DNA of 18,329 nt from Deltaproteobacteria bacterium (lineage in GTDB: Bacteria; Desulfobacterota; Syntrophia; Syntrophales; Smithellaceae), in contig SBEK01000070.1 in NCBI GenBank assembly GCA_009668925.1, positions 1-18,329 on the forward strand, in the 5' to 3' direction. Under the pieces are notes generated by a model. The model saw only the letters and a list, made by a program, of their open reading frames with translations, was not told the DNA's origin and made no database searches. The translations under genes were made by a program, and so were the position numbers. Each line of letters begins with the position of its first letter. Position 1 is the stretch's first letter. This document shows positions 1,040 through 15,550 of the stretch, piece by piece.

Positions 1040-2050
1040 TCAACGGCCGGCGGATAAAATTTCTTCGAACAGGTTCCGGTACTCGGCAATCATCCGATTC
1101 AGTGTAAACATTTTTTCAACCTTTGCCCGGTTGTACTCTCCCATTTCACGGCGCAATCGGGAATTCTCGGCAAGAAAACGAATTTTCTCGGCAAATGCGT
1201 TGACATCGCCCACCGGACACAAGAATCCGCCTTTCCCTTCGTCGATCAATTCCGGCAATGAAGAGCAATCGGTGGCCACAACGGGAAGCCCGCAGGACAT
1301 AGCCTCCGCTGCCGCCAGACCGAATCCCTCTCGAACCGTTGGAAATAAAAGAATATCAGCATCCTGATATACGCCGGGCATTTGGTTGTAGGGCACCGCA
1401 CCAAGGCATTGAAGGTTAGCCTGATTGGACAAGAAGCCTTTCGGCTGCAATCCCGAGGTGTAAATGATTTTGATGTTTTGACCCAATTTTTCGGCTATGG
1501 GCACGAGCCACTGCGCACCTTTTCTTTGCGACAGGTTTCCGCTGAACAAAACTTTAATGGTTGTTTTCGCCGACGTAGGTGTCTTCTTAGGGACGAATAC
1601 CTCGTCATCAATGCCGTTGTAAATCACTCTGATGTTGTCGGTCAATTTCATGTCAGACCTGACCAGCTCTGCCGTAAATCGGCTGACGGCCGTAAGCGTG
1701 TGAGCCTTTCTAACGGCCATCCTGGTAAACGCTTTCAAGTCGGTCTGATAATGGATGTTCTGCGCTACGCTGCTATAACCGCGCATAAAACGATCCAGGA
1801 CATAGTTGTGAAATGTTAAAATCAAAGGAACATCATTTCGCGCAAAAAAATAGGCATAATCCGGTGCGGCATGAATCAAGCCGGCATGGCCGGATCGGCC
1901 CACGGGAAAAAGAGATGGCGGGAATAGTGTTCTGTAAGGATTGTACTGGACAACCCGATAGCCGGGGATCTTTTTTTCGAGCAGTTTATGAACAACGAAG
2001 GCCCCGTTGCCGGTACCCATCGGGCTAATGATGCGACATTCATTGTTCAT
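1040..2050 (-). CDS. GT4-family glycosyltransferase
   Basis: A 336-residue GT-B glycosyltransferase, full length for the family. The N-terminal domain carries the glycine-rich start (SPMGTGNGAF, residues 9-18), LTFHNYVLDRF and AVSRFTAELV. The C-terminal donor domain starts near residue 165 (VLFSGNLSQRKGAQWL) and has the E-x7-E motif EGFGLAAAEA at 241-250 and CGLPVVATDCSSLPELI. ATG at 2050 is supported by GGAG seven bases upstream, inside the end of the preceding GT2 gene, which stops 3 bp before this start. It is the last gene of the operon and is followed by a terminator. Donor and acceptor sugars are unknown. Confidence 0.92.
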   Translation of the reverse strand: MNNECRIISPMGTGNGAFVVHKLLEKKIPGYRVVQYNPYRTLFPPSLFPVGRSGHAGLIHAAPDYAYFFARNDVPLILTFHNYVLDRFMRGYSSVAQNIHYQTDLKAFTRMAVRKAHTLTAVSRFTAELVRSDMKLTDNIRVIYNGIDDEVFVPKKTPTSAKTTIKVLFSGNLSQRKGAQWLVPIAEKLGQNIKIIYTSGLQPKGFLSNQANLQCLGAVPYNQMPGVYQDADILLFPTVREGFGLAAAEAMSCGLPVVATDCSSLPELIDEGKGGFLCPVGDVNAFAEKIRFLAENSRLRREMGEYNRAKVEKMFTLNRMIAEYRNLFEEILSAGR

Positions 2051-2053
2051 GAT

Positions 2054-2821
2054 TCAGCTCCGATCCGTCCTAAGTTTTGTCACGTAAGAGAGGTACCGAT
2101 AGGGTGGGTACAGAAGCCAGTAACTTTTGTACAGCAACCCCATGAGCAGTGAATGGCAATTCTTTTCGTGCACTCTTTTTTCTTCTGCAAACCGGAATTT
2201 TAGATTCCGCCAGTCCCGACGAGAGCTGATCCCGTTGTCGCGCATAACCGTCAAAATGACGGGGGCTTTAACGATTGCAGCACTGCGGCGATAAGCCCTC
2301 AAAAAAAAATCATAATCCATTGCAATTCGAAATTGCGTGTCAAACCCTCTCAGATCTTGAAGCAGTTGACGGCGGCAAAAAACGCCCTGGTGGTAAAGAC
2401 CCTGCTTGAAATTCGTCCAAACACCGAACCCCTTCGGCTTATAGACTTCAAGTTGTTTTCCAAAGAGGATGCTGCACGCCAGGATGTCGGTGCCGTCATT
2501 CAAGAAGGCGAGGGCATTTTCCAGACTTCTGTCATTTGCAAAATAATCATCCGCATGAAGAAAAATGAGATAATCTCCGGTTGCACGGGCCGAACCTTTG
2601 TTCATGGCATCGGCGATTCCTTCATCTTTCTCAGAAATGAAGTAGTCTACTTGATTCCTGTAGCGATTAATGATTTCCAGAGAACGGTCCGTTGAACCGC
2701 CGTCAATAATGATGTATTCAATATTGCCGTATGTCTGGCTCAGTACGCTTCTGATCGTTTGCTCAACGTGCGCCTCGGCATTGAGGACAATGGTGATGAT
2801 GCTGATCAGAGGATCTTTCAA
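2054..2821 (-). CDS. GT2-family (GT-A fold) glycosyltransferase
   Basis: Inverting glycosyltransferase of 255 residues. The first strand SIITIVLNAE is followed by the nucleotide-binding DGGSTD (residues 40-45). A metal-binding HADD (89-92) stands at the DXD position, and the acceptor region includes GLYHQGVFCRRQLL and AMDYDFFLRAY. The C-terminal tail is basic and aromatic and has no obvious membrane helix, so it probably works as a peripheral enzyme at the inner membrane. The start is TTG, with AAGG six bases upstream; the frame above it has no ATG or GTG. It is 26 bp from the upstream glycosyltransferase and 3 bp from the downstream one. Substrate is unknown. Confidence 0.92.
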   Translation of the reverse strand: MKDPLISIITIVLNAEAHVEQTIRSVLSQTYGNIEYIIIDGGSTDRSLEIINRYRNQVDYFISEKDEGIADAMNKGSARATGDYLIFLHADDYFANDRSLENALAFLNDGTDILACSILFGKQLEVYKPKGFGVWTNFKQGLYHQGVFCRRQLLQDLRGFDTQFRIAMDYDFFLRAYRRSAAIVKAPVILTVMRDNGISSRRDWRNLKFRFAEEKRVHEKNCHSLLMGLLYKSYWLLYPPYRYLSYVTKLRTDRS

Positions 2822-2847
2822 TTCAAACCTTTTGCCTCGTATGAAAA

Positions 2848-4041
2848 TTAATTGTTACGCATAGTAAAAAGCAGACGGGTCCAGAGGTTCTTCTTATAGA
2901 TATTGAAATCGAGTTGTTCGTCAAAATAACGTCGGGCATTTTTTCGGTAAGCTTCCCGGTCAATGTCATTTAATACGGCTGATATATCCGCCGGCGAATC
3001 AACGACGCGGCCAAATTGTTCTCGCCGGGCTTCGTCGGCATATAAACCAATTTCATTCATAATAACGGGAACACCATATCGGAGATACGTGCTGATTTTG
3101 CCCGCCGCCATTCCCAAAAATTCCAGATTTTTCCCCGTGCCGGGATTGTTGAAATTCGGTTTATAAAAGGCAAGTCCGGCGGAGACTCCCGAAAAAATAC
3201 TACCCATGTCGTCGACCGCTTCCGCGGCTGCATCGCTGATGTAAATCTTTGATCCGATCAACGCACGTGCGGCATTGGCATCTGTGGTTAAAAGTTCTTT
3301 CGTGCGGCCATAGCGTTCATGGACGATTAAAACCCAGTCGTCCGGCCATTCCACTACACTCCCGAGGATTTGAGTGATCATGGACCATGCAAACACAGAA
3401 CCGGCGGCAATGGCTATTTTCTTCTCTTTCGGAATTCCCAGGTGGTCGCGGAGTCGTTCATTATTCGGCAGACCGGGCCCGGCTGACGAAAGGGGAAGGA
3501 GAGATCGGATTGAAGACGGGAGGAGATTTTCTGACTGTAATTGCTTTGCTCTTACTTCATCCTGAACAATCCATAACGAAACGTCCTTTGAGGCCCGACG
3601 TTCGAGCGATTTAAACGCGCAAGACGTTTCGTCTTCAAAGAGAATCTCGAAGGAAATAAACACATAAGGCGTCTTTGTTAATTTGCTGAAGATACTCGCC
3701 TCGATGAGTCCATGCCGGTCAACCCCGATGAGCAAGTCATATTTCCCATATACGAAAAATTTTTCAATGAACACGGAAAGAACGACTAAAGGCCACGCAC
3801 AAAGAAGATCAGTAAGGACTGCTTTAATCAAACCGATCACCCGTCCAAAAGGCAAAAAGCGAATTCCATCGATGCGCGGCATCGGCGATGGTGACTTTCT
3901 GTAACGAAGGTCAATTCCGTAGCCTTTTTCCCGCAAAAGATCGATGATGCATTTCAGCGACGGGTTATTAAAGAAATTTCCTTCCCTGTGAAGAATCAGG
4001 ATCCGCTTTGATCGGTTATGACAGTGATCGTTGATGTTCAT
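2848..4041 (-). CDS. GT-B fold glycosyltransferase (GT4-like)
   Basis: A 397-residue protein with the two-domain look of a GT-B enzyme. The N-terminal half starts with a hydrophobic strand (RILILHREGNFFNNPS) and has a membrane-associating hydrophobic stretch near residues 68-95. A second Rossmann start, KKIAIAAGSVFAWSM, lies at 207-221. The donor-side motif GMAAGKISTYLRYGVPVI (310-327) matches the usual GLASxKxxEYLxxGxPVI pattern. The classical E-x7-E is not clear, so it is a divergent member. The ribosome site before ATG 4041 is weak (GGA three bases away). It follows a 131-bp gap after the transferase/methyltransferase fusion in which I see no gene. Specificity is unknown. Confidence 0.82.
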   Translation of the reverse strand: MNINDHCHNRSKRILILHREGNFFNNPSLKCIIDLLREKGYGIDLRYRKSPSPMPRIDGIRFLPFGRVIGLIKAVLTDLLCAWPLVVLSVFIEKFFVYGKYDLLIGVDRHGLIEASIFSKLTKTPYVFISFEILFEDETSCAFKSLERRASKDVSLWIVQDEVRAKQLQSENLLPSSIRSLLPLSSAGPGLPNNERLRDHLGIPKEKKIAIAAGSVFAWSMITQILGSVVEWPDDWVLIVHERYGRTKELLTTDANAARALIGSKIYISDAAAEAVDDMGSIFSGVSAGLAFYKPNFNNPGTGKNLEFLGMAAGKISTYLRYGVPVIMNEIGLYADEARREQFGRVVDSPADISAVLNDIDREAYRKNARRYFDEQLDFNIYKKNLWTRLLFTMRNN

Positions 4042-4172: not shown

Positions 4173-6197
4173 TTAATGCATTGCATGCTTTTGCCATACA
4201 ATGTAGGAAACTTCACTTGCCCCATGTATTATCGAAAATGCCCGCACAAGATGCAAATGATGATACTGGGCGAACTGATCCAGCAGTGCTCTTGGGATGA
4301 CGACCGGGAAACGATAGCTTCCGGAGAGCCATGCATCCGCTACAGACAGAGTGAATGCTTCCGCTGGATAATAATCAAAGACAATAAACCCACCGGAACG
4401 GCAGATACGTGCGCACTCTTTCAGATAGGTGACAGTTTGCAGCAGTGACAGATATATAAACACACCATGGGCATGGACGAGATCGCACGTATTGCTGGCC
4501 GTGTTGCTTAAGGTTTGTCCATCGGCAGGGTGACATATCAACTTACAGCCGTTGCGGTCATGATACTCATCTTGCAGAAATTTAGTCCATGATGGACTAG
4601 TCTCATAGACTTCATAATTTGCGGGTTGTGCTACTTCCATTATCTTTTCAAGATATTGACCTGTACCGGCACCAATTTCGCAGACGCGATTGAGTTGCTG
4701 GAAAACGCCAGACTCTTGAAGTTCAGCAATAATGCGGTCACGCCGTCCACGCTTGCGGACATCGTTTTCGATATTTTCTAAATATTCGCAGACGGACAAT
4801 CCACTTTGCTTTGCGGCTGCCACAATTTGATCAGCATTATGGAAACCGGAGCCAGTGCGCCTGATATCATAACCATAGCGATTTAACACGCGGCGAACAT
4901 ATTGGCCGGCATTACGAAGGAGATAGCTGCCACCCTGTACACGCCGCATGAGATCCTTTGTCGCTTTGGCCGATCTTCTACTGCGTACCCCAGTGGCAAG
5001 TAATTCCGAAATCTTGTCAACGGCGGCTTGCGTGGCGTGACCGGCATTGTAAAGTAAATATTCTCTTAATGCCGTTTTGTTTGGCGGATACCGATCAGGA
5101 TGTGCGAAGATCTCCGTGAGTGCCTGAGGCAGCTCCTGAGGACGGGCAACAACGAGACCAAATTCTTTTCCACCGTTGACTGTTGTCCGCTGAGCATAAC
5201 CGGAGACATCCGTGCCCGGGAAAAAAGCTGCTACGGCAATTTCATAAAAACGGGGCGTATCAATAAAAATAACGGGCTTGCCAAGTGCGAGGAATTCGAA
5301 ACTGATGCTGGATACGCACGTGATAAGAACATCTGCACAGGCAAGAGCCTTGTCGGCTGCATAATCGCGGAAAAGCCTGAAGTTCGGGAAATCATTTTCC
5401 AGGGTACTGATTGTTTCAGGCCAGTTGACGCCACCCGTGGCCGTAATATCGCTTGTCGGTTTCAAACAGTCTATCGGGAGTTTGGCTAGGATGTTATATG
5501 AGGAAAGCTGACAGATCGTTCTTAAAACCTCCAGACCACAATCACGTAATGAAGCCCCCTCGTTGAAAGCCGGGGCGTAAAGAATGGTTTTGTGAGTTGG
5601 GTCAAGATCCAGATCGCGCAGAATGTTCTCTCGGTCGTAGCAACCATTGATTAAGTCGTCTGACTTGGTGTAACCAATTTCGAAGAGAGACAGATGTTTT
5701 GGAAGTGTCCAGTGCTGCATGGCCAAGTGTTCATCCAGCGCCTGTCGCTGAAGGGGACCATAGAGGAATAAAGCATCATTGGCAAACACGGGATACATTC
5801 CGTGCAGATTAAAGGTAACTCCTTTGGATGGCTGACCGTGAAAGAGTGTTAGCGTATAGACACCGGGCGGTCCGGTTACAAATTGTTCATTGGTAATGTA
5901 CAAATCTAATCGATGAAAAGAAAAGTGTTTCAAGCATCGATAGGGTAAGTTCTTCAGGCGGTTCTGAAGGTGAGGATAAAGATTTTCGAAGTCAGTTTGA
6001 CTGTCCTCATGATGAAAAACATAAAACAGGTCCGTTGGAAAACGGGCAAGAAGCAACTCGACCACATTTCGACAAAACTGAAATTCGCCGATGGACATCA
6101 AATCAATTCCGATAGCCCGTCGTTGACCCTTAAACATCAGTGCAATCGATTCACGGAAACACAGGAAAAACAATTTGAGGGTAGATGCGATTTTCAT
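4173..6197 (-). CDS. Fusion: TagF-like (CDP-glycerol) glycerophosphotransferase domain + SAM methyltransferase domain
   Basis: 674 residues in two enzyme modules. Residues about 1-400 resemble the CDP-glycerol:poly(glycerophosphate) glycerophosphotransferase family (GT-B). FHGQPSKG at 119-126 contains H120, aligned with the catalytic His of the HGTPxK motif. ILYAPAFNE lies at 205-213, and CVSSISFEFLALGKPVIFID at 294-313 corresponds to the SSxxFExLxxxKPxIF motif. After a basic linker (400-450), residues about 455-674 form a class I SAM methyltransferase with motif I VCEIGAGTG (505-513). Family knowledge suggests transfer of a phosphopolyol or other CDP-activated group to a glycan, then methylation. 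It starts 6 bp after the racemase gene, with AAAAGG just before ATG. No coiled coil is evident. The actual donor is unknown. Confidence 0.85.
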   Translation of the reverse strand: MKIASTLKLFFLCFRESIALMFKGQRRAIGIDLMSIGEFQFCRNVVELLLARFPTDLFYVFHHEDSQTDFENLYPHLQNRLKNLPYRCLKHFSFHRLDLYITNEQFVTGPPGVYTLTLFHGQPSKGVTFNLHGMYPVFANDALFLYGPLQRQALDEHLAMQHWTLPKHLSLFEIGYTKSDDLINGCYDRENILRDLDLDPTHKTILYAPAFNEGASLRDCGLEVLRTICQLSSYNILAKLPIDCLKPTSDITATGGVNWPETISTLENDFPNFRLFRDYAADKALACADVLITCVSSISFEFLALGKPVIFIDTPRFYEIAVAAFFPGTDVSGYAQRTTVNGGKEFGLVVARPQELPQALTEIFAHPDRYPPNKTALREYLLYNAGHATQAAVDKISELLATGVRSRRSAKATKDLMRRVQGGSYLLRNAGQYVRRVLNRYGYDIRRTGSGFHNADQIVAAAKQSGLSVCEYLENIENDVRKRGRRDRIIAELQESGVFQQLNRVCEIGAGTGQYLEKIMEVAQPANYEVYETSPSWTKFLQDEYHDRNGCKLICHPADGQTLSNTASNTCDLVHAHGVFIYLSLLQTVTYLKECARICRSGGFIVFDYYPAEAFTLSVADAWLSGSYRFPVVIPRALLDQFAQYHHLHLVRAFSIIHGASEVSYIVWQKHAMH

Positions 6198-6203
6198 GGC
6201 CTT

Positions 6204-6917
6204 TTAACTGAGTGCCAACGCAACGGTATGTTTGGCCAATTCAAGGCTCGAGTCAATTAACGGTACCGGCGCTTCCAGTTTAGCAAGACATCCGAATTCC
6301 GTGCAGGCCATGATCACAGCATCGACCTGCCACTGTTTATATAACGTCATAACGATTGTTTCCATCGCTTGTACATGAGCAACCGGTGTCGGATCAAGTT
6401 TGATAGCTTCGATGAGTTGTTCAGAGCGTTTCTGGATATCCGCGCCATGATCCAGCAAATCCACACCATGGCTTTCCAGAAAAGCTTTGTAGCTGTTTCG
6501 TCGATAAGTGACATGACCGCCCAGTACAGCGACCCGCCGCGCAACCGGATATTTCTGTACCAGGGCGTTAGCTGTAATCTCACAAATATTCAGAAGAGGG
6601 ATTTGCAGATGAGGCTGTATTTCTGGGATAAAAACAGCGGCACTATTGCAAGGCAACACAATCAAGTCCACCGGGTATTGCTGCAGTTTCAGGCAGCTTT
6701 CCAGCATTCCTTCCACGGGCGACGTTTCACCATAAAGGACGTGACGAGTCCGGCTCGGGATATGCGGGTTGTCGTCGATAATGATCCGTAAGTGGTCCCA
6801 ATCTTTTTCCGCTGGGGTGAGTGTCAGTAATGACTGAAAAAAGGCCAAAGTGGCATATGGCCCCATGCCGCCCAGCACGCCGACGATTTTCGAAGTCCGG
6901 TATTCAGGTTGTGTCAT
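6204..6917 (-). CDS. Aspartate/glutamate racemase family protein
   Basis: Cofactor-independent amino-acid racemase of 237 residues that interconverts L and D forms by a two-cysteine mechanism. GVLGGMGPYAT lies near the N-terminus. The two catalytic cysteines are present: C90 in LPCNSAAV and C205 in MACTEFG. VAVLGGHVTYRRNSY starts the second lobe. I place the start at ATG 6917, because GGGGGA lies seven bases upstream; the in-frame TTG at 6923 would leave no room for it. The gene begins 2 bp after the stop of the preceding methyltransferase gene. In this context it may supply a D-amino acid for glycan decoration, but some family members act on other substrates. Confidence 0.88.
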   Translation of the reverse strand: MTQPEYRTSKIVGVLGGMGPYATLAFFQSLLTLTPAEKDWDHLRIIIDDNPHIPSRTRHVLYGETSPVEGMLESCLKLQQYPVDLIVLPCNSAAVFIPEIQPHLQIPLLNICEITANALVQKYPVARRVAVLGGHVTYRRNSYKAFLESHGVDLLDHGADIQKRSEQLIEAIKLDPTPVAHVQAMETIVMTLYKQWQVDAVIMACTEFGCLAKLEAPVPLIDSSLELAKHTVALALS

Positions 6918-6919
6918 TA

Positions 6920-7762
6920 TCAAGTCCCCCTGTGAAATATGAAAAAGTCATGAGAAAAATCCACTACCTCGCCTGTCGGCCCCCAAATCCGTCGGCTGGC
7001 ATTGGCAAGGATTCTCAGAAAATGGAACGACAAGGGCGCCGTGAGACGCACAGCGCCGGCGCACTGACGGCTGGATAATAAACGACGCAAGACGCCGGGC
7101 ACATTCAAAAAAAGATAGCTCTGCCGCCGGTAATCTAGTTTGAATCCAGCTTCGCGGAAAATCTGTTCCAGTTCGTCAGATGTCCGGTAAATGCAGAAAT
7201 AGTCCTGCCGGTCCGTGAGCAAACGCTGGCGCCGATGCACCGTACTTCTGTCAATAATTACCGCGTTGGGTCTCAGTGAACGGTAGAGGCGTTTCAGTAA
7301 TTTCCGGAGATCCGCGTCATGTAAATATTGCGTAACACCGCTCAGGTAAACGATGTCGAAAGAACTCGTCGGTATGTAATCCTGTGCCGCTTCCCTGCAA
7401 AAAGTAATGTTGTCCAGTTTTAAGAGTGCTGCCCGGGTTCGGGCGATGTCGAGCATCGGTTGGCTAAAGTCCACCGCATCATAGTGTTTAACCAGCGGCG
7501 CCAGTGAAATAGCCCAGCGTCCATTTCCCGAACCCAATTCCAGAACTGTCTTCTGACGGTCAAAGGCCACCAGACGCCGTAAATGCCTTGATTCTTCGAA
7601 ATGACGATAGAGTACCTCTGTTAATCCGCAGCCGCCGATATCTGAGACACCTAATAATTCTGGCCTCACAGCTGTTTGTTTCATCCAGTACTCATAGGAT
7701 TGGCGGTAGTCGCTGTCCTTGCTGTCAGCGGCTTTTTTTCTATCTTTGTTCCAGTGAGTCAT
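6920..7762 (-). CDS. Class I SAM-dependent methyltransferase
   Basis: 280 residues. The SAM-binding motif I VLELGSGNG is at 73-81, followed by the acidic YDAVDFS (94-100) that binds the ribose, then FDIVYLSGVTQYL and LYRSLRPNAVIIDRS typical of methyltransferase fold strands 4-5. The N-terminal 60 residues (charged, with SYEYWMKQ) probably form the substrate lid. It is likely to methylate a sugar or a cap group of the glycan made by this locus; the target cannot be deduced. It is 87 bp downstream of the nucleotidyltransferase gene, a gap in which I see only very short frames, and 2 bp upstream of the racemase start. Confidence 0.87.
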   Translation of the reverse strand: MTHWNKDRKKAADSKDSDYRQSYEYWMKQTAVRPELLGVSDIGGCGLTEVLYRHFEESRHLRRLVAFDRQKTVLELGSGNGRWAISLAPLVKHYDAVDFSQPMLDIARTRAALLKLDNITFCREAAQDYIPTSSFDIVYLSGVTQYLHDADLRKLLKRLYRSLRPNAVIIDRSTVHRRQRLLTDRQDYFCIYRTSDELEQIFREAGFKLDYRRQSYLFLNVPGVLRRLLSSRQCAGAVRLTAPLSFHFLRILANASRRIWGPTGEVVDFSHDFFIFHRGT

Positions 7763-7849
7763 ATCGTTCCATTGTGGCGAGAAATTGTTCTTACCCTCGG
7801 CCTTCCCAGCGTGAAAGTCGTAAACGAGCAGTCATAGTCTTTATTAGTC

Positions 7850-8572
7850 TTACGCAAATAATTTATTCGCATTTTCCAAATCGGTCAAATTATCAATTTC
7901 AAACCACTTCAAGCCCCCGACATCGACAATCTCCACTGAGGCTTCACCGAAATGTGGCCCAACAATCAAGTCATAATATAGATTCTGCTGCCCTGCGGAT
8001 ACACCCTGTTCAAGCCATTTCTTAAAGTGTTCTGTTCCTATTGAATTAAGGTGCAGCAAGCCGATGGACTTACCCTGTTGTCCTGTCAGCAATTTTAAAT
8101 CCCGGATAATATTCAGCGATATTGCACGATGTTCATCATTGAAGCTTATATAGGCGCCGTCCAAATCCTTACGCAAAGCATCCACAAACCAAGATATCTC
8201 ATGACGAACAGTCTTAGCCAGTACGGCTGGTTCAAAAAAAACATCACCTTCCAGTATCCAAGTTGCCTCTCTCAGGTCAGATAGTCCAAGGTGCAGACTG
8301 TACATGCTGTTGGTTGTCGCGAACTCGGCGTTCTCGATAAACTCTATATTCATGCCCTTGTAGGGGGACCCGATTTGTTCTCGTACGACAGAAGCCAGGT
8401 GGCCGATTACCACTCTGACGTTTTCAACACCCTTGTCCGCAAATAAATTTAAAGCATTCTCTAAAATGCTTTTTCCACAAACTTTAATCATGCATTTGGG
8501 AGCAGTTTCTGTCAGGGGTCGCAATCGCGTGCCTTCTCCTGCGGCCAAGATGATTGCGTATCGTGTAGTCAT
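7850..8572 (-). CDS. LicC-like sugar/choline-phosphate nucleotidyltransferase
   Basis: 240-residue nucleotidyltransferase that would join NTP and a phosphorylated substrate to give an NDP-activated group plus pyrophosphate. The signature GEGTRLRP (12-19) with PK at 25-26 binds NTP. TTNSMYSL (87-94) is like the NTxNxYSL segment of CTP:phosphocholine cytidylyltransferases (LicC) and related CTP-using enzymes. EGDV (108-111) and WFEIDNLTDL (223-232, with D227) carry the metal-binding aspartates. The length fits LicC better than the longer sugar enzymes. Its ATG overlaps the wzt stop codon by 4 bp (ATGA), so translation is probably coupled. CTP use and the substrate are inferred; no cognate kinase is visible in the window. 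Confidence 0.85.
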   Translation of the reverse strand: MTTRYAIILAAGEGTRLRPLTETAPKCMIKVCGKSILENALNLFADKGVENVRVVIGHLASVVREQIGSPYKGMNIEFIENAEFATTNSMYSLHLGLSDLREATWILEGDVFFEPAVLAKTVRHEISWFVDALRKDLDGAYISFNDEHRAISLNIIRDLKLLTGQQGKSIGLLHLNSIGTEHFKKWLEQGVSAGQQNLYYDLIVGPHFGEASVEIVDVGGLKWFEIDNLTDLENANKLFA

Positions 8573-9885
8573 TTTGAGTCCTCCATTAAATTATTCGTTT
8601 TGACAATCGTCCAGTGACTTGGTGTGTAGACCTCACATCCACTATAAGCATAACGTTCAAAATCAGCTCCGCAACCGTTTATATCGCTTCCCACAATTTC
8701 GATAGTCGTAATTTCTTGGACATGATCGTCTGCGGCGTTGCCTTCTCTCAGCACCCAGGCGCCAAGCAGGTATTTCCCCGGAAGAAGCTTGATATTTGGA
8801 ATTTCAACTTCAAATACGTGCTCACCCACCTCCAGATCATAGCGCAATCCCTCCCAGGTTGAAACAATGTAATGTATAGCAATACCGGCCCAACTGCTGA
8901 TTTTAACGCCGATTTCAAAGTTTTCCATTCGCCTGATACAGGAAACTCCAAGCCGGATGATAGCTGTCGAGCCCATCGAAAATGTGCTGGCTGGTTTATT
9001 TTGCTGATTGAATATTGACATCAGTTTCAGGCGCGCGAAAGACCCAGCTCCCCCGTGTATGAATTGGTCCAGATCCAGAGAATTTTCACTGCTTACAACC
9101 ATCGTGTATCGACTGATCACGTCCTTTACCGGCCCGATCAGGGCCACGCGCCCTGAATCTAACATCATGGCTGACTCGCACAATCCCATTACAGCCGACA
9201 TGTTGTGGCTTACGAATAAGACGGTTCGACCTTCCTTTGCAGCATCCCCCATCTTGCCCAGGCACTTCTTTTGAAATTGGGCATCGCCCACAGCAAGCAC
9301 TTCGTCTATGACGAGAATCTCCGGCTCAAGGTGTGCGGCAACGGCAAACGCGAGACGCACATACATACCGCTGGAGTAACGCTTGACCGGGGTATCAAGG
9401 TACTTCTCCACATCGGCGAAAGCGACGATCTCGTCAAATTTACGATTTATCTCTCTCCGGGTCATGCCCAGGATGGTCCCATTCAGATAGATGTTTTCTC
9501 GTCCCGAGAGCTCTGGATGGAAGCCGGTGCCCACTTCCAACAGACTGGCGACCCGTCCGTTTAAAGTTAGCCTTCCAGCGGACGGTTCGGTGATGCGGCT
9601 AAGAATCTTTAATAACGTACTTTTCCCCGCACCATTGCGGCCGATGATGCCAATGGCCTCACCACGGCGTACCTGAAAAGTTACATCACTGAGCGCCCAT
9701 ACTTCTTCAAGTGTATCGCCCTGAATGACCGGTTTCCCCTGCATCATATCCTTTGTCTTGCTCCAGAACGTCCTGGCATTCTGCATCAGAACGTCGCGCA
9801 AGGCGGTGTAGCCGGTTTTTTGCCGTTGGTGACCTATCGTATATTTCTTTCCAATATTTTCGGCTTTGATGATGATGTCGGACAT
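8569..9885 (-). CDS. wzt: Polysaccharide ABC exporter ATPase with C-terminal Wzt-type domain
   Basis: 438 residues. The nucleotide-binding domain has Walker A GRNGAGKST (82-90), ABC signature YSSGM (170-174), Walker B ILVIDEVLAVGD (190-201) and the H-loop SHN (226-228). About 150 residues follow the domain (roughly 285-425) with beta-rich sequence such as FEIGVKISSWAG and LPGKYLLGAWV. This matches the C-terminal domain of Wzt proteins of E. coli O8/O9a type, which binds the capped end of the glycan before export. KpsT-type ATPases lack this extension. It lies 8 bp after wzm, with AAAAGG four bases before ATG, and overlaps the following nucleotidyltransferase gene by 4 bp. Confidence 0.93.
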   Translation of the reverse strand: MSDIIIKAENIGKKYTIGHQRQKTGYTALRDVLMQNARTFWSKTKDMMQGKPVIQGDTLEEVWALSDVTFQVRRGEAIGIIGRNGAGKSTLLKILSRITEPSAGRLTLNGRVASLLEVGTGFHPELSGRENIYLNGTILGMTRREINRKFDEIVAFADVEKYLDTPVKRYSSGMYVRLAFAVAAHLEPEILVIDEVLAVGDAQFQKKCLGKMGDAAKEGRTVLFVSHNMSAVMGLCESAMMLDSGRVALIGPVKDVISRYTMVVSSENSLDLDQFIHGGAGSFARLKLMSIFNQQNKPASTFSMGSTAIIRLGVSCIRRMENFEIGVKISSWAGIAIHYIVSTWEGLRYDLEVGEHVFEVEIPNIKLLPGKYLLGAWVLREGNAADDHVQEITTIEIVGSDINGCGADFERYAYSGCEVYTPSHWTIVKTNNLMEDSK

Positions 9886-9893
9886 GCGGCCTT

Positions 9894-10715
9894 TTAAATC
9901 AAATCTGCAAAGGTTTTTTCCATACGTCTAAAATGAGTAACGCCCAACCAAAGAAAGAACCCAATGACGAGAAAACTGAGCAGAAACCCCGGCAGGTAAA
10001 TTGGGCTGTCTCCACCCAGGATACACCAGCGGAAACCGTCGATCACACCCACCATCGGATTAAGGCTGTAAAGCAGGCGCCATTGTTCGGGAACGATCCT
10101 GCTACTGAAACCAACGGGAGAAACATAAAGCCCGAATTGCACAACGAAAGGAACGACATAGCGGAAATCCCTATATTTTACATTGAGCGCAGTAATCCAG
10201 AGACCGGGGCCCAGACTGGCAAGCAAGGCCATTGTGATGAAAAAGGGTAGGCACAGAATCTGCCAACCGGGTGCAAATTGATAGTAAATCATCATCCCGG
10301 CGAGAATGAATAAGCTAATAAAGAAATCAGCCAGAGAAGTAATCAACGATGCCGCAGGCATGATCATCCGGGGGAAATAAACTTTGCTGATCAAATTGGT
10401 ATTGTCGATCAGACTGCTTGACGATTCCGCGAGTGAATTTGCGAAAAGAGACCAGGGAAGCATGGCTGCAAAGACCATAAGAGCATACGGTGTATTGCCA
10501 TCGCTGGGCAGTTTTGCAATCTTACTGAACACGACCGTGAAGACGATCATCGTCAGAAACGGCCTGAGAATGGCCCACAAAATACCGATGATGGTCTGTT
10601 TGTAGCGAACGGACAGATCACGCCATGATAGAATCAGAAAAAGCTCTCTATAGCGCCAGAGATCACTCCAGTAGTTTTTCTCAGCCCGACCTGCTTCAAT
10701 TACAATTTCGCTCAT
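9894..10715 (-). CDS. wzm: Polysaccharide ABC exporter permease
   Basis: 273-residue inner-membrane protein of the ABC-2 permease family that forms the channel for lipid-linked glycan with Wzt. An N-terminal amphipathic segment (YWSDLWRYRELFLILSWRDL) leads to about six membrane segments, near residues 41-65, 75-97, 118-147, 150-177, 186-204 and 242-262. The conserved KVYFPR (111-116), NVKYRDFRYVVPF and SLNPM (217-221) are typical of Wzm/KpsM/TagG proteins. It directly precedes wzt. The ribosome site before ATG 10715 is poor, and the upstream methyltransferase gene ends 21 bp before the start. Confidence 0.94.
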   Translation of the reverse strand: MSEIVIEAGRAEKNYWSDLWRYRELFLILSWRDLSVRYKQTIIGILWAILRPFLTMIVFTVVFSKIAKLPSDGNTPYALMVFAAMLPWSLFANSLAESSSSLIDNTNLISKVYFPRMIMPAASLITSLADFFISLFILAGMMIYYQFAPGWQILCLPFFITMALLASLGPGLWITALNVKYRDFRYVVPFVVQFGLYVSPVGFSSRIVPEQWRLLYSLNPMVGVIDGFRWCILGGDSPIYLPGFLLSFLVIGFFLWLGVTHFRRMEKTFADLI

Positions 10716-10736
10716 GAGTGAAATAAATTTCCGATG

Positions 10737-11534
10737 CTATAATTTCTTTGTCGATTGCACGCAGAAACACACGCCCCATGTCTCCGGGCCGATCGGGTTT
10801 CCCGCAAGCCATTCTTCGGCATGGAGGATTTGCAGGCCGCTGTGGTCGGCGATGCACTCGATTTCCGGTCTGAAAAAATATCGCATCGCATGTGTTTCCC
10901 GCAATTCGCTCACGACCTGTGTGGAAAGATCTCGTACAAACATGTGGTAACTGACATCGACCCGATTGTCATTGATGTGAAGACGAGGTTCGGCTAATCG
11001 CGCAATCTCTATCTTTTCATCCGTCATCCTCTTGATCCTGACAGACGGGCGTTGCGTCAGGACAGCCGGTCCGTACCAGACATCAAAAATAAAAATGCCG
11101 CCGGGTTTGAGATGATGTTTGACCGTTTCAAATGATCGTCTGACATCGTCATTGCTGGTCTGATAGCTCATGACGTGAAAGAGGGCGATGACAGCATCGA
11201 AACGTTTCTCCAGGCGGACTTCCCGGATATCACCCGCATCAAAGGTCAACCTGCTGCTCTGCATGTTGCTTTTTTTAACAAGAGATCTGGATCGAAGGAG
11301 CATTTCCTCGCTCTGTTCTATTCCGTGAACGGAAAAACCCTTATCCGCCAGCAGAGACGCGTGAATGCCTGTCCCGGAGCCCAGCTCAAGAATGGAGTGC
11401 ACAGACGGATGAAATCTGTGAAGGAGATTGACGACGTATTCGGTTTCCGCGGGGTAGTCCTTATCCCGGTAGATGAGATCATAGTACCGGGCGTAATCCG
11501 CAAATACCGCTCTGTTGCTTATAATATTTGACAT
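10737..11534 (-). CDS. Class I SAM-dependent methyltransferase
   Basis: 265 residues. The N-terminal FADYARYYDLIYRDKDYPAE is typical of small-molecule methyltransferases. Motif I ILELGSGTG is at 48-56, followed by GIEQSEEML, the acidic FDAGDIRE and FDAVIALFHVMSY. LKPGGIFIFDVWYGPAV forms strand 5. The second half contains a beta insertion (RLHINDNRVDVSYHMFV) likely to shape the substrate site. GGGGTG lies about five bases before ATG 11534. It sits between the FkbM methyltransferase and wzm, separated from the former by 172 bp in which I find no convincing gene. Substrate is unknown; a glycan or nucleotide-sugar target is inferred from context. Confidence 0.87.
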   Translation of the reverse strand: MSNIISNRAVFADYARYYDLIYRDKDYPAETEYVVNLLHRFHPSVHSILELGSGTGIHASLLADKGFSVHGIEQSEEMLLRSRSLVKKSNMQSSRLTFDAGDIREVRLEKRFDAVIALFHVMSYQTSNDDVRRSFETVKHHLKPGGIFIFDVWYGPAVLTQRPSVRIKRMTDEKIEIARLAEPRLHINDNRVDVSYHMFVRDLSTQVVSELRETHAMRYFFRPEIECIADHSGLQILHAEEWLAGNPIGPETWGVCFCVQSTKKL

Positions 11535-11706
11535 GAGTGCACCCCGATTGTTGACCGGCTATAAAACAATTGCTGATTGCAATGCGAACCACGAGCGACG
11601 AATACAGCAGATCCAGACGTCTGAATGCCGCCGCCGACATTGCCCTGAAGACAAGAAACATACACAGCGCTTCCTTCGTGACCTTGTCTTTTTAAAGGCA
11701 TAAAAA

Positions 11707-12498
11707 TCATCCGAAGGAAGAACCCGTCAATTTTTTCATTTGTTCGGCTGTTGAATAGGAATGGTTATGTCTGAATTTCCCATTCTCCTGAACAAAAATA
11801 ATATCCAGCTGCCCCAGCGCGTTGTCAAGGGGACGGTTCCACCCGTGAATGATGTCATACGCAACGAAGCCGTGATTCTTCATGTACAGGACGACATCAA
11901 AGAATTGAGGAGCGCCTTTCATAAATTGAAACATGGATACTTCCAGAGCGACCGCTTCCGCCATCCGTAATGTTTCCTGCGCACCGTCCAATACGTTCAG
12001 TTCGGCGCCCTGAGCGTCCACCTTAATGAGGCATGATCCGGTGAGTTCCTTCTCCTTCATGATGTCGTCGATACGAACGGTGGGCACTGTAATTTCGCAT
12101 CCATCGGCGGCCGCGCCCATGGTTTCTTTGTAGAGGGACGATCCTTCCAGATGATTTTTATGGACATTGAATGTCACCAAACCTGTACTTGAAGCGGCGG
12201 CTGCGAGAACATAATTCCCCCTGTGCCTTACGAGAATGCGTTTCAGGTCCGCTTCAAATTCTTTCAGGGGTTCTATCAAGAGAAAGAAGGAATCCGGAAA
12301 AGTCCGATACAGATCATCGGTCCCTTTCGCGACGCCGACATCGATGACGATGTCGGGACGGAACCCCAGTTCGCGCAGAAGAAGATAGGACTCTTCGATG
12401 CTTGTTCTCAATCGTCCGACCGCCGTTTTATCTGAGATTCGTCTGATATCGTAGCCACATCTTCTGGCGAAAGTCTGGAGAGTATGTTTGATGCTCAT
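11707..12498 (-). CDS. FkbM-family methyltransferase
   Basis: 263 residues of the FkbM (Methyltransf_21) family, which mostly O-methylate sugars or small molecules. Motif I is IDVGVAKGTDDLYRTFP (52-68), the ribose-binding acid is in LIEP (74-77), VPTVRIDDI is at 138-146 and LIKVDAQGAELNVLDGA at 157-173; all are hallmarks of the family. The start carries a short basic segment ending GYDIRR (15-20), a motif also found in the linker of the transferase/methyltransferase fusion in this operon. ATG 12498 has GGAGG nine bases upstream. It is 91 bp after the aminotransferase gene. Confidence 0.9.
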   Translation of the reverse strand: MSIKHTLQTFARRCGYDIRRISDKTAVGRLRTSIEESYLLLRELGFRPDIVIDVGVAKGTDDLYRTFPDSFFLLIEPLKEFEADLKRILVRHRGNYVLAAAASSTGLVTFNVHKNHLEGSSLYKETMGAAADGCEITVPTVRIDDIMKEKELTGSCLIKVDAQGAELNVLDGAQETLRMAEAVALEVSMFQFMKGAPQFFDVVLYMKNHGFVAYDIIHGWNRPLDNALGQLDIIFVQENGKFRHNHSYSTAEQMKKLTGSSFG

Positions 12499-12589
12499 TC
12501 CGCAGAGCCTCCACTTGATTCGGATTTGACCCTATCCGTGGACGTATTGCAGCTCATTGAAAGGCAACCGTCGGGTGTCAGTTGCATCT

Positions 12590-13750
12590 TTAGAGACTGT
12601 TCAAACATTCTCCGACCATTTCGCAAACATAATTCAGTTGCTCCATCGTCAGTGATAATCCGGACGGGAGATAGAGTCCCTGACGAGCGATGCGTTCGGC
12701 GACGGGGTAGGCTTCCTTCTGAAAAAGCCCCATACCGCGAAAAACAGGCTGTTCGTGCATACCCAGAAAGAAAGGACGGGTCTCCACACCTCTTTCTTTT
12801 AAGTCCTGCGCCAAGCGGGTGGCCGTCGGCCCCGTACGTTCATCAATCACGATGCCGTACATCCAGAATACTTGTTTTGCCCATGTTTCTTCCACAGGCA
12901 GCTGAAGGGTGCCGATGTCCTGCAAACGTTCTGTATAGGCTTTTCCCATCCACCGTTTCTTTGCTACAATTTCATCCATTCGTTCCAATTGACCAAGACC
13001 AATAGCAGCCTGCAGGTTAGTGAGGCGGAAATTGTGACCGAGCTCCGTATGGAGGAACCGCTGTTCAGGACGAAAGCAAAGATTGCGCAAACTTCTGGCT
13101 TTCTCCGCATCATGAGCATCGTTCGTCAGAACCATGCCGCCTTCGCCGGTGGTGATGAGCTTGTTGGCATAAAAACTGAACACGCTGATGTCTCCGAAGC
13201 CTCCGCATTTTTTCCACTGTGGGGAATCAGTTGTCCGCCCTGTCATATATTCGGCGCCATGAACTTCGGCGGCGTCTTCGATGATCTTCAGGTCGTATTC
13301 TTCGGCAAGATCAATAATCGGGTCCATGTCAACAGGATGGCCATAAATATGGACGGGCATGATGGCTTTAAGCCTGCCGTCACCTTTGCGCATCTCCGAT
13401 TCGACTTTTTCGCGAACCTGTGACACATTCATACACCAGGTGCGCGGATCGCTGTCGACAAGAAGCGGAACACCGCCACTGCGTATGATCGCCTGTGCGC
13501 AGGAGATAATGGTGAAGGCGGGCATGATGACCTTATCCCCCGGTTTCAGTCCGATGCACTCAACCGCCACCTGAAGCGCAACCGTACCGTTGGCCACGGC
13601 AATTCCGTATTTCATGCCGCAGTACTGAGCCCATTTGTACTCGAATTCTTCGATAAAACGGCCCGCCGAAGAAACCCAGCCGGTCCGCAGGCACTCATTG
13701 ACGTATTCAATTTCTTTGGAACCGATCAGAGGCTCGCTGACGGAGATCAT
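12590..13750 (-). CDS. DegT/DnrJ/EryC1/StrS-family sugar aminotransferase (perosamine-synthetase-like)
   Basis: PLP enzyme that would aminate a keto nucleotide sugar. With start ATG 13750 it has 386 residues, the usual size. TGWVSSAGRFIEEFE near the N-terminus and AVANGTVALQ (phosphate site) are family hallmarks. IIEDAAEVHGA holds the aspartate that contacts the PLP ring, and FSFYANKLITTGEGGM carries the Schiff-base lysine K197. The WVSSxGxFIxxFE and FxxNKxITxGEGGM patterns resemble GDP-perosamine synthases more than WbpE-type enzymes, but substrate assignment from this is tentative. GAGGA sits six bases before ATG 13750 and abuts the alternative ATG at 13756, so the later start is chosen. 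The resulting ATGA overlap with the cupin gene suggests coupling. Confidence 0.92.
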   Translation of the reverse strand: MISVSEPLIGSKEIEYVNECLRTGWVSSAGRFIEEFEYKWAQYCGMKYGIAVANGTVALQVAVECIGLKPGDKVIMPAFTIISCAQAIIRSGGVPLLVDSDPRTWCMNVSQVREKVESEMRKGDGRLKAIMPVHIYGHPVDMDPIIDLAEEYDLKIIEDAAEVHGAEYMTGRTTDSPQWKKCGGFGDISVFSFYANKLITTGEGGMVLTNDAHDAEKARSLRNLCFRPEQRFLHTELGHNFRLTNLQAAIGLGQLERMDEIVAKKRWMGKAYTERLQDIGTLQLPVEETWAKQVFWMYGIVIDERTGPTATRLAQDLKERGVETRPFFLGMHEQPVFRGMGLFQKEAYPVAERIARQGLYLPSGLSLTMEQLNYVCEMVGECLNSL

Positions 13751-14175
13751 GAGCATTCCTCATCAAATTTGGTTTTATCACCGTCGCCGGCGAACGGGCC
13801 TTGCTTGACCTCGATCATGGCGGTTTCTTCCAGCATTTCGAATGAGTGGCCGCCGCCGCACAGCAAAATGAGATCTCCCGAATTCAGAATCCGCTCTCCA
13901 ACATGTTCCTGGTTCGAAGTGTAAAGTTTCACTTTAACTTTGCCATGCCGGATAATAAGCACTTCCTGCGTGTAAAGGACCTGTCGCGTGATCATGTTAT
14001 GATGGTGAGCGGCGATCTTGTGTCCCTGCGGATGCTGCATGTAGGCGACCTGTTGAGAAAAACTGCCCGGCGTGAAGAACTTGATGCCGGGTTCATGATA
14101 TTCCGCCCGGATGATCAGGGCGATGGGTTCCAAACCTTGCGTAATGGTCTCGACACTTTCATTCATTTTTTCCAT
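13747..14175 (-). CDS. Small cupin-domain protein
   Basis: 142-residue single-domain cupin. Motif 1 is G51-x5-H57-H58-H59 with E71, and motif 2 is GDLILLCGGGH with H110, so the metal-binding residues H57, H59, E71 and H110 are all plausible. It lacks the RG-x-HAH pattern of the FdtA/QdtA sugar 3,4-ketoisomerases, so I do not call it one. The start at ATG 14175 has AGAGGA five bases upstream. Its stop overlaps the aminotransferase start by ATGA, implying that the pair work together, perhaps on one nucleotide sugar. The exact role is unknown. The stop of the epimerase remnant lies just before its ribosome site. Confidence 0.8.
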   Translation of the reverse strand: MEKMNESVETITQGLEPIALIIRAEYHEPGIKFFTPGSFSQQVAYMQHPQGHKIAAHHHNMITRQVLYTQEVLIIRHGKVKVKLYTSNQEHVGERILNSGDLILLCGGGHSFEMLEETAMIEVKQGPFAGDGDKTKFDEECS

Positions 14176-15127: not shown

Positions 15128-15226
15128 GTTTATTCTTTGAGCTAACAAAGACAGAGAACAAGGGTTGTAACCACCTCCCAGCCCTCAGTTCTTTGGTCTA
15201 ATGAAATTATAGTTGCCTCTGCATGA

Positions 15227-15454
15227 GATTGCCACCACCCGGGCACAGCCTGCCGTGGCGAACGCCGGGGGTGGTAGTCCCGGACATTCGGCTGCTGGTG
15301 AGATTGCCACCCCGGCCTTCGCCGGGGCAGGCTGTGACTGAACGTCGCCTCCAATGACAGTGCCGGATTGCCACAGCGCGCGAGGCGCGGTTCACAATGA
15401 CGGAACGGGGGGGAGGGATTGCCAGAGCGCCAGAACGGTAGTTTGCAATGACGG
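15227..15454. repeat. Cluster of four degenerate dispersed repeats (GATTGCCA ... CAATGACGG type)
   Basis: The 480-bp gap 15072-15550 has no gene; besides the promoter it holds this repeat block. Units begin with GATTGCCA at 15227, 15302, 15366 and 15417. The last three end in CAATGACAG or CAATGACGG near 15360, 15403 and 15454. Units 3 and 4 are about 38 bp with variable GC-rich centres. Unit 2 contains a perfect hairpin CCCCGGC-CTTC-GCCGGGG (15310-15327). The spurious reading frame across it encodes the RHCEPRLARCGNP-like peptide often annotated in genomes rich in such intergenic repeats. Confidence 0.7.
15244..15336. repeat. Long imperfect inverted repeat within the repeat cluster
   Basis: The left arm, 15244-15279, begins CACAGCCTGCC. 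The right arm, 15336-15301 read on the minus strand, begins with the same 11 bases. Beyond this the arms share GGCGAA, GCCGGGG and TGG with a few substitutions and one single-base indel. A central region of about 20 bp separates them. It looks like two repeat units inserted in opposite orientation and could form a long hairpin in RNA or a cruciform in DNA. Confidence 0.6.
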
Positions 15455-15550
15455 AGCGGGGTTACCGCGCCCTCGTGTCTTATCTCATTAGGCAGGGGCC
15501 ATGCTGCAATTCTTAGATCAAGATGGAATCCCTGATACACGACCAGCGGA

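Follow-up and report, generated by a model that had tools for sequence, protein, structure and literature searches.

The 18,329-nucleotide stretch analysed here (the window; positions 1 to 18,329 of contig SBEK01000070.1, from the deltaproteobacterial assembly GCA_009668925.1) carries a cluster in which the genes for an ATP-binding cassette (ABC) transporter, wzm and wzt, stand upstream of a gene for a TagF-like protein fused to an S-adenosylmethionine (SAM) methyltransferase (MT). All genes considered lie on the minus strand and are tightly packed, in the transcription order DegT, FkbM-type methyltransferase, MT1, wzm, wzt, LicC-like cytidylyltransferase, MT2, racemase, TagF-MT fusion, an open reading frame (ORF) with weak matches, and two glycosyltransferases (Table 1). 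The wzt and licC genes overlap by 4 bases, as do MT2 and the racemase gene, and the spacing is 87 bases from licC to MT2 and 6 bases from the racemase gene to the fusion. An earlier sequence-only reading of this DNA passed over the three genes between wzt and the fusion, those for the LicC-like protein, MT2 and the racemase; the true unit is a four-gene cassette, licC-MT2-racemase-tagF::MT, behind wzm-wzt. A Pfam scan covered 17 ORFs of the window, the fusion included, with smaller and antisense ORFs set aside. No kinase was found among these 17, in agreement with the earlier statement that the cluster has no WbdD-like kinase, nor was a LicD protein or LicA kinase, a glycerol-3-phosphate cytidylyltransferase or a glutamine kinase.

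Table 1. Features of the cluster, with coordinates in the window (CBD, carbohydrate-binding domain).
Feature	Position	Strand	Basis or remark
DegT	12590..13756	-	
FkbM-type methyltransferase	11707..12498	-	
MT1, methyltransferase upstream of wzm	10737..11534	-	Pfam
wzm, ABC-2 permease	9894..10715	-	PF01061, 69.7 bits
wzt, ABC ATPase with C-terminal CBD	8569..9885	-	PF00005 and PF14524
Wzt C-terminal domain, residues 262-438	8569..9102	-	Conserved only with the cassette
LicC-like cytidylyltransferase	7850..8572	-	PF00483/PF12804; PDB 1jyk
MT2, resembles amine N-methyltransferases	6920..7762	-	Methyltransf_PK, 54 bits
Asp/Glu-racemase-family protein	6204..6923	-	PF01177, 102.5 bits
TagF-like/methyltransferase fusion, 674 aa	4173..6197	-	PF04464 and Methyltransf_11
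TagF-like half of fusion, residues 1-400	4998..6197	-	Foldseek 3l7m
Linker of fusion, residues 401-455	4833..4997	-	AlphaFold
SAM methyltransferase half of fusion, residues 456-674	4173..4832	-	Methyltransf_11; EIGAGTG motif
ORF with only weak glycosyltransferase matches	2848..4041	-	NCBIfam, 17-18 bits
Glycos_transf_2 type glycosyltransferase	2054..2821	-	Pfam
Glycos_transf_1 type glycosyltransferase	1040..2050	-	Pfam

The fusion protein matches PF04464 (Glyphos_transf) over residues 170-311 at 32.7 bits (cut-off 22.1) and Methyltransf_11 over residues 507-607 at 36.3 bits (cut-off 21.2). AlphaFold, with 34 aligned rows, gave two confident domains (mean pLDDT 89.6); the model is weak near residues 421-450 and at the C-terminal tip, and a pTM of 0.64 leaves the relative placing of the two domains unsure. 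The top Foldseek match of the model is TagF (3l7m, E 3.2e-13), with SAM methyltransferases next. The N-terminal half has the TagF fold and belongs to the PF04464 family, and Pfam, AlphaFold and Foldseek agree with the earlier claim that a single protein joins a CDP-glycerol-type phosphotransferase to a SAM methyltransferase. A protein search with the fusion returned 97 matches, the window's own included; it admits only proteins of 0.55-1.75 times the query length, which excludes free-standing MT halves (about 240 aa) and biases the fused fraction. The SAM-binding motif is present in 81 of the 97 and missing from 16; subtracting P0091, a carrier with an MT half only, and the window's own protein gives 79 other fused proteins. 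Because 78 proteins of at least 600 aa (again counting the window's) carry the join, and because a 100/99 branch separates these 78 from 7 free-standing MT halves in a tree with a partly unresolved backbone, the joining of TagF and MT halves is not due to chance. The split is consistent with a single fusion event. The family comprises about 80 fused protein clusters, most of them unnamed and the names shown mainly domain-based; one member, P0060, comes from Methylomonas sp. LL1.

The window's Wzt combines ABC_tran with PF14524 (Wzt_C; 34.3 bits, cut-off 30.4). Its best solved match is the Aquifex aeolicus Wzt (8dku, E 4.3e-74), and Foldseek likewise returns full-length A. aeolicus WzmWzt, so the C-terminal extension claimed earlier is borne out. 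The model of Wzt is weak overall (pLDDT 69), with ten-residue blocks at 68-94 over residues 271-400 and at about 40 over residues 401-420. Structure prediction had been put forward as a check on the halves of the fusion and on the Wzt CBD, and it yielded TagF-like, SAM methyltransferase and A. aeolicus Wzt-like folds. In the accessible part of one source, all terminated O-antigen examples have a CBD on the transporter ATPase that binds the end group (PMC11231755), and in that of another, the A. aeolicus CBD reads a methylated end sugar (PMC9445017). Across the accessible parts of both, Wzt is described as reading caps that consist of methylation, of (methyl)phosphorylation or of a distinct sugar, for example 3-deoxy-D-manno-octulosonic acid (Kdo) (PMC9445017, PMC11231755).

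A second copy of the cassette allows the CBD to be compared with the rest of Wzt. In an Aminicenantes genome (G139), locus L021 has the order DegT-MT1-wzm-wzt-licC-MT2-racemase-fusion, which is that of the window minus the FkbM gene; its fusion protein (P0052) is 43% identical to the window's. The ATPase domains of Wzt from the window, L021 and three loci with a free-standing MT half (L001, L002 and L032) share 59-65% identity in all ten pairs. By contrast, the CBDs share 49% identity for the window and L021 and only 14-26% in the other nine pairs, the window's being 15-20% identical to those of the three loci with a free-standing MT half. A second Wzt of G139, at locus L018, has ATPase identities of 44-53%, while the identity of its CBD is 16% with the window's and 13% with that of L021. 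The CBDs of L001 and L032 are weakly alike (26%, 53 bits), and these two loci form sister rows in the MT-half tree. Thus, the CBD differs sharply where the ATPase does not, and it appears to follow the enzyme set, since 49% identity is reached only by the pair that shares the cassette while the ATPase stays at 59-65% throughout.

The genes between wzt and the fusion bear on what the TagF-like half might transfer. The best PDB match of the LicC-like protein is LicC (1jyk, E 7.8e-18), followed by 6pd1 (4e-11), which we take to be PntC. LicC is a CTP:phosphocholine cytidylyltransferase whose partners are the kinase LicA and the transferase LicD. Source labels on some of the LicC-like homologues read L-glutamine-phosphate cytidylyltransferase, choline kinase or phosphocholine cytidylyltransferase, and these are labels only. 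One LicC relative, P0117, is 74% identical to the window's; its longest contig, of 379 kb, has no equal-sized mate in the fusion list, and it perhaps belongs to donor genes that work with another transferase. Among the 30 PDB matches listed for MT2, N-methyltransferases acting on N-terminal Xaa-Pro-Lys and on phospho(methyl)ethanolamine rank first. The racemase exceeds the cut-off of the broad amino-acid racemase model TIGR00035 (116.9 bits against 93.1), and its best solved match is aspartate racemase (1jfl, E 9e-28). Its best NCBIfam model is that of the cysteate racemase CuyB (NF052483), at 181.3 bits below the cut-off of 190, which the L021 homologue exceeds at 199.7 bits; both cysteine motifs, PCNSA and ACTEF, are present in the window's protein. 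Cysteate is a sulfonate look-alike of phosphoserine. CuyB is described, in the accessible part of the source, as interconverting L- and D-cysteate (PMC11382572).

Together, the LicC-like protein and the racemase suggest an amino-acid-like CDP donor, and from the family assignments of the LicC-like protein, MT2 and the racemase we infer that the transferred group, X, is amino-acid- or amine-like. Our guess is that X derives from O-phosphoserine, which would account for the absence of a kinase. The sequence-only reading had proposed that a phosphopolyol, or another CDP-carried group, is added, and the neighbouring genes speak against the phosphopolyol. That glycerol phosphate, for example, is transferred from CDP-glycerol and then methylated would fit the PF04464 family and the TagF fold, but the 17 ORFs hold no cytidylyltransferase for glycerol phosphate, the nucleotidyltransferase present being LicC-like and accompanied by a racemase and an N-methyltransferase-like protein. 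These three proteins would be left unexplained by a phosphopolyol, and the MT half also occurs without a TagF half; we regard this alternative as highly improbable. A methyl phosphoramidate pathway, prompted by the L-glutamine-phosphate cytidylyltransferase labels (JGI), was considered and set aside, with no kinase among the ORFs scanned.

Our results point, with a rough probability of 0.47, to a model in which licC-MT2-racemase-tagF::MT next to wzm-wzt is a cap cassette for an ABC-exported polysaccharide, the cap consisting of phospho-X and a methyl group and being read by a matching CBD. In this model, the LicC-like enzyme would produce a CDP-activated small group X, which the racemase and MT2 would shape, most simply into an amino-acid-like or amine phosphate. 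The TagF half would then move phospho-X from CDP-X to the growing glycan, and the MT half would methylate the same terminus, on either the sugar or the added group. The Wzt C-terminal domain, conserved with the cassette, may recognise the capped end and license export, as known Wzt biology would lead one to expect. Such a system would follow the quality-control logic of WbdD/Wzt, with a CDP-linked donor taking the place of the kinase. The idea of length control and export licensing put forward earlier is partly supported, in that a cap enzyme and reader pair without a kinase is plausible given that the CBD goes with the cassette; the capping role itself, and with it the position of the group at the chain end, is still an inference. 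If true, the use of a small CDP-activated group as a cap would introduce a further chemistry, explain how a kinase-free cluster licenses export, offer a testable rule that the Wzt reader domain matches the enzyme set behind wzt, and provide a functional guess for the family of about 80 fused protein clusters. Among the titles and openings of abstracts listed by literature searches on this theme, no TagF-like capping enzyme appeared.

To gauge how widely the cassette is linked, the results of protein searches with LicC and with the CBD were compared with the fusion list through contigs of identical size. A LicC relative lies on an equal-sized contig for 12 of the 79 other fused proteins, this type of CBD for 4, and one or the other for 15; among the TagF- or MT-only proteins, 1 of 17 is linked to LicC in this way. 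When the sizes were shifted by 1, 2, 3, 5, 7 or 11 bases either way as a control, coincidences over the 12 shifts numbered 3 for LicC and 0 for the CBD. The true counts are probably higher, as each cluster is reported with its longest contig only. The searches were also word-limited: that for the CBD had 197 candidates and 14 matches and missed L021, a known positive. A search for the same fusion beside wzt in other genomes, proposed with the original claim, gave L021 and four further fused proteins linked to the same CBD type by equal-sized contigs. That reading would be undermined if fusions stood mainly in loci without an extended Wzt; a full reading was possible for the two loci with readable neighbours, the window and L021, and in both the fusion lies downstream of a CBD-bearing Wzt.

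Free-standing MT halves give a different view of the methyl group. We counted nine MT-half-only loci (L001-L007, L030 and L032), leaving out the weak L008 and the fragment L014. Genes for wzm and wzt lie upstream of the MT half in three of the nine (L001, L002 and L032), and no TagF half was found there. Between wzt and the MT half, L001 has a sulfotransferase-like protein and a protein without a Pfam match (positions 2376-3958), L002 has a glycosyltransferase and a UDP-sugar dehydrogenase, and L032 has a 701-aa nitroreductase-polysaccharide pyruvyltransferase ORF (9906-12008, minus strand). No wzm or wzt was found at L003, L005 and L007, all on contigs of less than 8 kb. Since it stands free beside wzm/wzt without a TagF half, the MT half may methylate the terminal sugar itself, and in part of the family it is probably a glycan-terminus methyltransferase with a varying partner. 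The suggestion that the added group is the one then methylated is therefore doubtful. A bolder version of the model, which we consider unlikely in its full form, would place the fusion in a new, kinase-free and CDP-dependent class of terminator. Here, the LicC-like enzyme would activate a phospho-amino acid for which no kinase is required, such as O-phosphoserine, racemised by the CuyB-like protein and N-methylated by MT2; the TagF half would add it and the MT half would methylate the chain end. The MT half would be the common module, and the partner after wzt (the TagF half, the sulfotransferase-like protein of L001 or the pyruvyltransferase fusion of L032) would be swappable, each with its own Wzt reader.

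The TagF half on its own also supports the transfer of a single group. At L027, a TagF-half-only protein lies beside a fusion of cytidylyltransferase and phosphoenolpyruvate (PEP) mutase, a phosphonopyruvate decarboxylase and an iron-containing alcohol dehydrogenase (9350-14137, minus strand), with the PEP mutase fusion and the decarboxylase both over their NCBIfam cut-offs. A phosphonate activated with CDP may be what this TagF-like protein attaches to a glycan, and its neighbours therefore support transfer of a single CDP-activated group by the TagF half.

Nonetheless, a number of observations weigh against a cap read by Wzt. Among the other fused proteins on contigs of at least 30 kb, LicC was matched for only 3 of 12 and the CBD for 1 of 12, the explanation being either that the searches overlook distant partners or that some family members work with different ones. 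These 12 include P0052, P0060 and P0022, the last on a contig of 148 kb. Of the first 70 LicC relatives listed, 29 lie on contigs of at least 8 kb; a fusion-list mate was found for 12 of these and none for 17. Of 7 CBD relatives on contigs of at least 10 kb, 5 have such a mate and 2 have none (the window is counted among the 12 and among the 5). No wzm or wzt was found at L004 (Streptomyces), L006 (Petrachloros) and L030, where the MT half has some 9 kb or more of sequence to either side, nor at either of the two TagF-half-only loci (L027 with L033, 27 kb, and L031, 20 kb), in which the TagF half thus occurs independently of Wzt. The AlphaFold model of the window's fusion, the one protein modelled for this purpose, gives no sign of a long coiled coil or WbdD-like ruler, the longest inter-domain helix being an 18-residue one in a low-confidence stretch. 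Finally, cap-reader matching would predict the observed CBD pattern, and so would the inheritance of neighbouring genes as a block.

The last of these points leads to an explanation by linkage alone, in which the cap chemistry is unrelated to the cassette and the likeness of the CBDs comes from block inheritance; gene blocks of polysaccharide clusters are generally known to move together. Two results make this improbable. The MT-half tree, with its partly unresolved backbone, has CBD-linked fusions at three places: in the window's group together with P0004 and P0018, at P0025, and at P0052, the fusion of L021. In addition, ATPase domains that are equally related bear unlike CBDs beside other enzyme sets.

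The conserved residues of the TagF half raise a further possibility, that it has no transferase activity of its own and serves instead to bind glycan or as a structural element holding the methyltransferase in position. In its N half, H120 of the HGxxxKG motif, which we take by its motif to be TagF H444, is the only invariant histidine, with no second one, and this too counts against the capping model. The histidine at TagF index 584 is present in 3l7i and replaced by alanine in the 3l7m variant, and the sequence alignment is unreliable at that place. All 34 rows have P, A or S at position 241, which follows the conserved KL, and in 28 of them the residue preceding the SS motif is C, where the known TagF stretch has D. 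However, H120 is invariant in 34 of 34 rows, as are K125, D180, N235, D289 and S296, and the linked LicC-like gene points to a CDP-dependent partner; we give a non-catalytic TagF half very little credence.

The main rival, and a serious one, is decoration along the chain, in which phospho-X and methyl would be placed on the repeat units and the CBD would read another cap, such as a sugar methylated by MT1 or by the FkbM-type enzyme. LicC-like enzymes serve decoration pathways, several of the window protein's relatives carry the L-glutamine-phosphate cytidylyltransferase label, methyl phosphoramidate and phosphocholine have precedent on other surface glycans, and the window contains other methyltransferases. 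The TagF-half relatives at L027 and L031 lack wzt in the stretches read. In Campylobacter jejuni, Cj1415-1418 are needed for a CDP-linked phosphoramidate donor, and the capsule is thought to follow an ABC-transporter pathway, according to the accessible part of the source (PMC11800397). On the other side, the CBD tracks the cassette rather than MT1, a gene present at L002 and L032 too, and we consider decoration possible, if on balance unlikely.

The proposed terminator can be set beside several known systems. It resembles the WbdD and O7 ORF6 methyltransferase-kinases of E. coli O9a and Klebsiella pneumoniae O3/O7, in which one protein likewise unites a phospho-group enzyme and a SAM methyltransferase and the cluster includes a CBD-bearing Wzt. 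Unlike WbdD, the window has a TagF-like domain, no kinase among the scanned ORFs and three probable precursor genes alongside. It also differs in that the fusion shows no coiled-coil ruler, which the accessible part of the source names as a terminator feature (PMC11231755). Homology to WbdD was rejected, as no kinase is present among the ORFs scanned and the solved structures matched by the MT half and by the A1 profile do not include WbdD. With TagF/TarF/TarL and Cps3D, the fusion shares the PF04464 family, the TagF fold and the HG...K motif; it departs from TagF in its low identity (about 14%, Foldseek), its fused methyltransferase, a LicC-like partner instead of one of TagD/TarI type, a type absent from the 17 ORFs, and probably the want of an invariant second histidine. 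LicC is the best solved match of the LicC-like protein, and the labels of its relatives name both the LicC activity and that of the C. jejuni phosphoglutamine cytidylyltransferase Cj1416, the likeness to Cj1416 being by labels only; the partners LicA, LicD and glutamine kinase are those missing from the ORFs scanned. Wzt shares the full-length fold and CBD of A. aeolicus WzmWzt (8dku and others), but its CBD sequence type appears tied to the cassette. The racemase, for its part, differs from CuyB in scoring just under the cut-off and in its setting of polysaccharide synthesis.

Sampling of genomes with the A1 profile scored few candidates per genome, so absences are weak evidence. One full fusion, that of G139, was found in 142 sampled genomes of the class of G001, and none in 247 genomes of the phylum of G001 (a sample without G139), in 369 of the E. 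coli class or in 398 of the E. coli phylum. None was found either in 245 genomes of the phylum of G003 (three MT-half matches and one TagF-half match), 296 of the phylum of G149 (one TagF-half match) or 194 of the phylum of G002 (one MT-half match). A profile scan of genome contigs gave at least 8 loci, with no full fusion among the matches listed. Mobile carriage was rejected: there was no phage match, and 17 pattern stretches in viral contigs contained no confirmed relative. The plasmid matches are to the MT half only, on two Streptomyces plasmids.

Upstream of wzm, positions 10737-14175 of the window hold together MT1, DegT and a small protein without a Pfam match that looks cupin-like by eye. 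These three co-occur in the window, L002, L021, L027/L033 and L032, not always adjacent, and both with and without wzm/wzt nearby. The FkbM-type gene separates DegT from MT1 in the window, and the two are adjacent in L021 and L032. Farther along, a 132-aa ORF at 15142-15540 is probably spurious; the stretch contains a pair of 46-nt direct repeats, 76% alike, along with an inverted repeat of 27 nt. Next to it, positions 15551-17155 encode a Gfo/Idh/MocA dehydrogenase joined to a hexapeptide acyltransferase domain.

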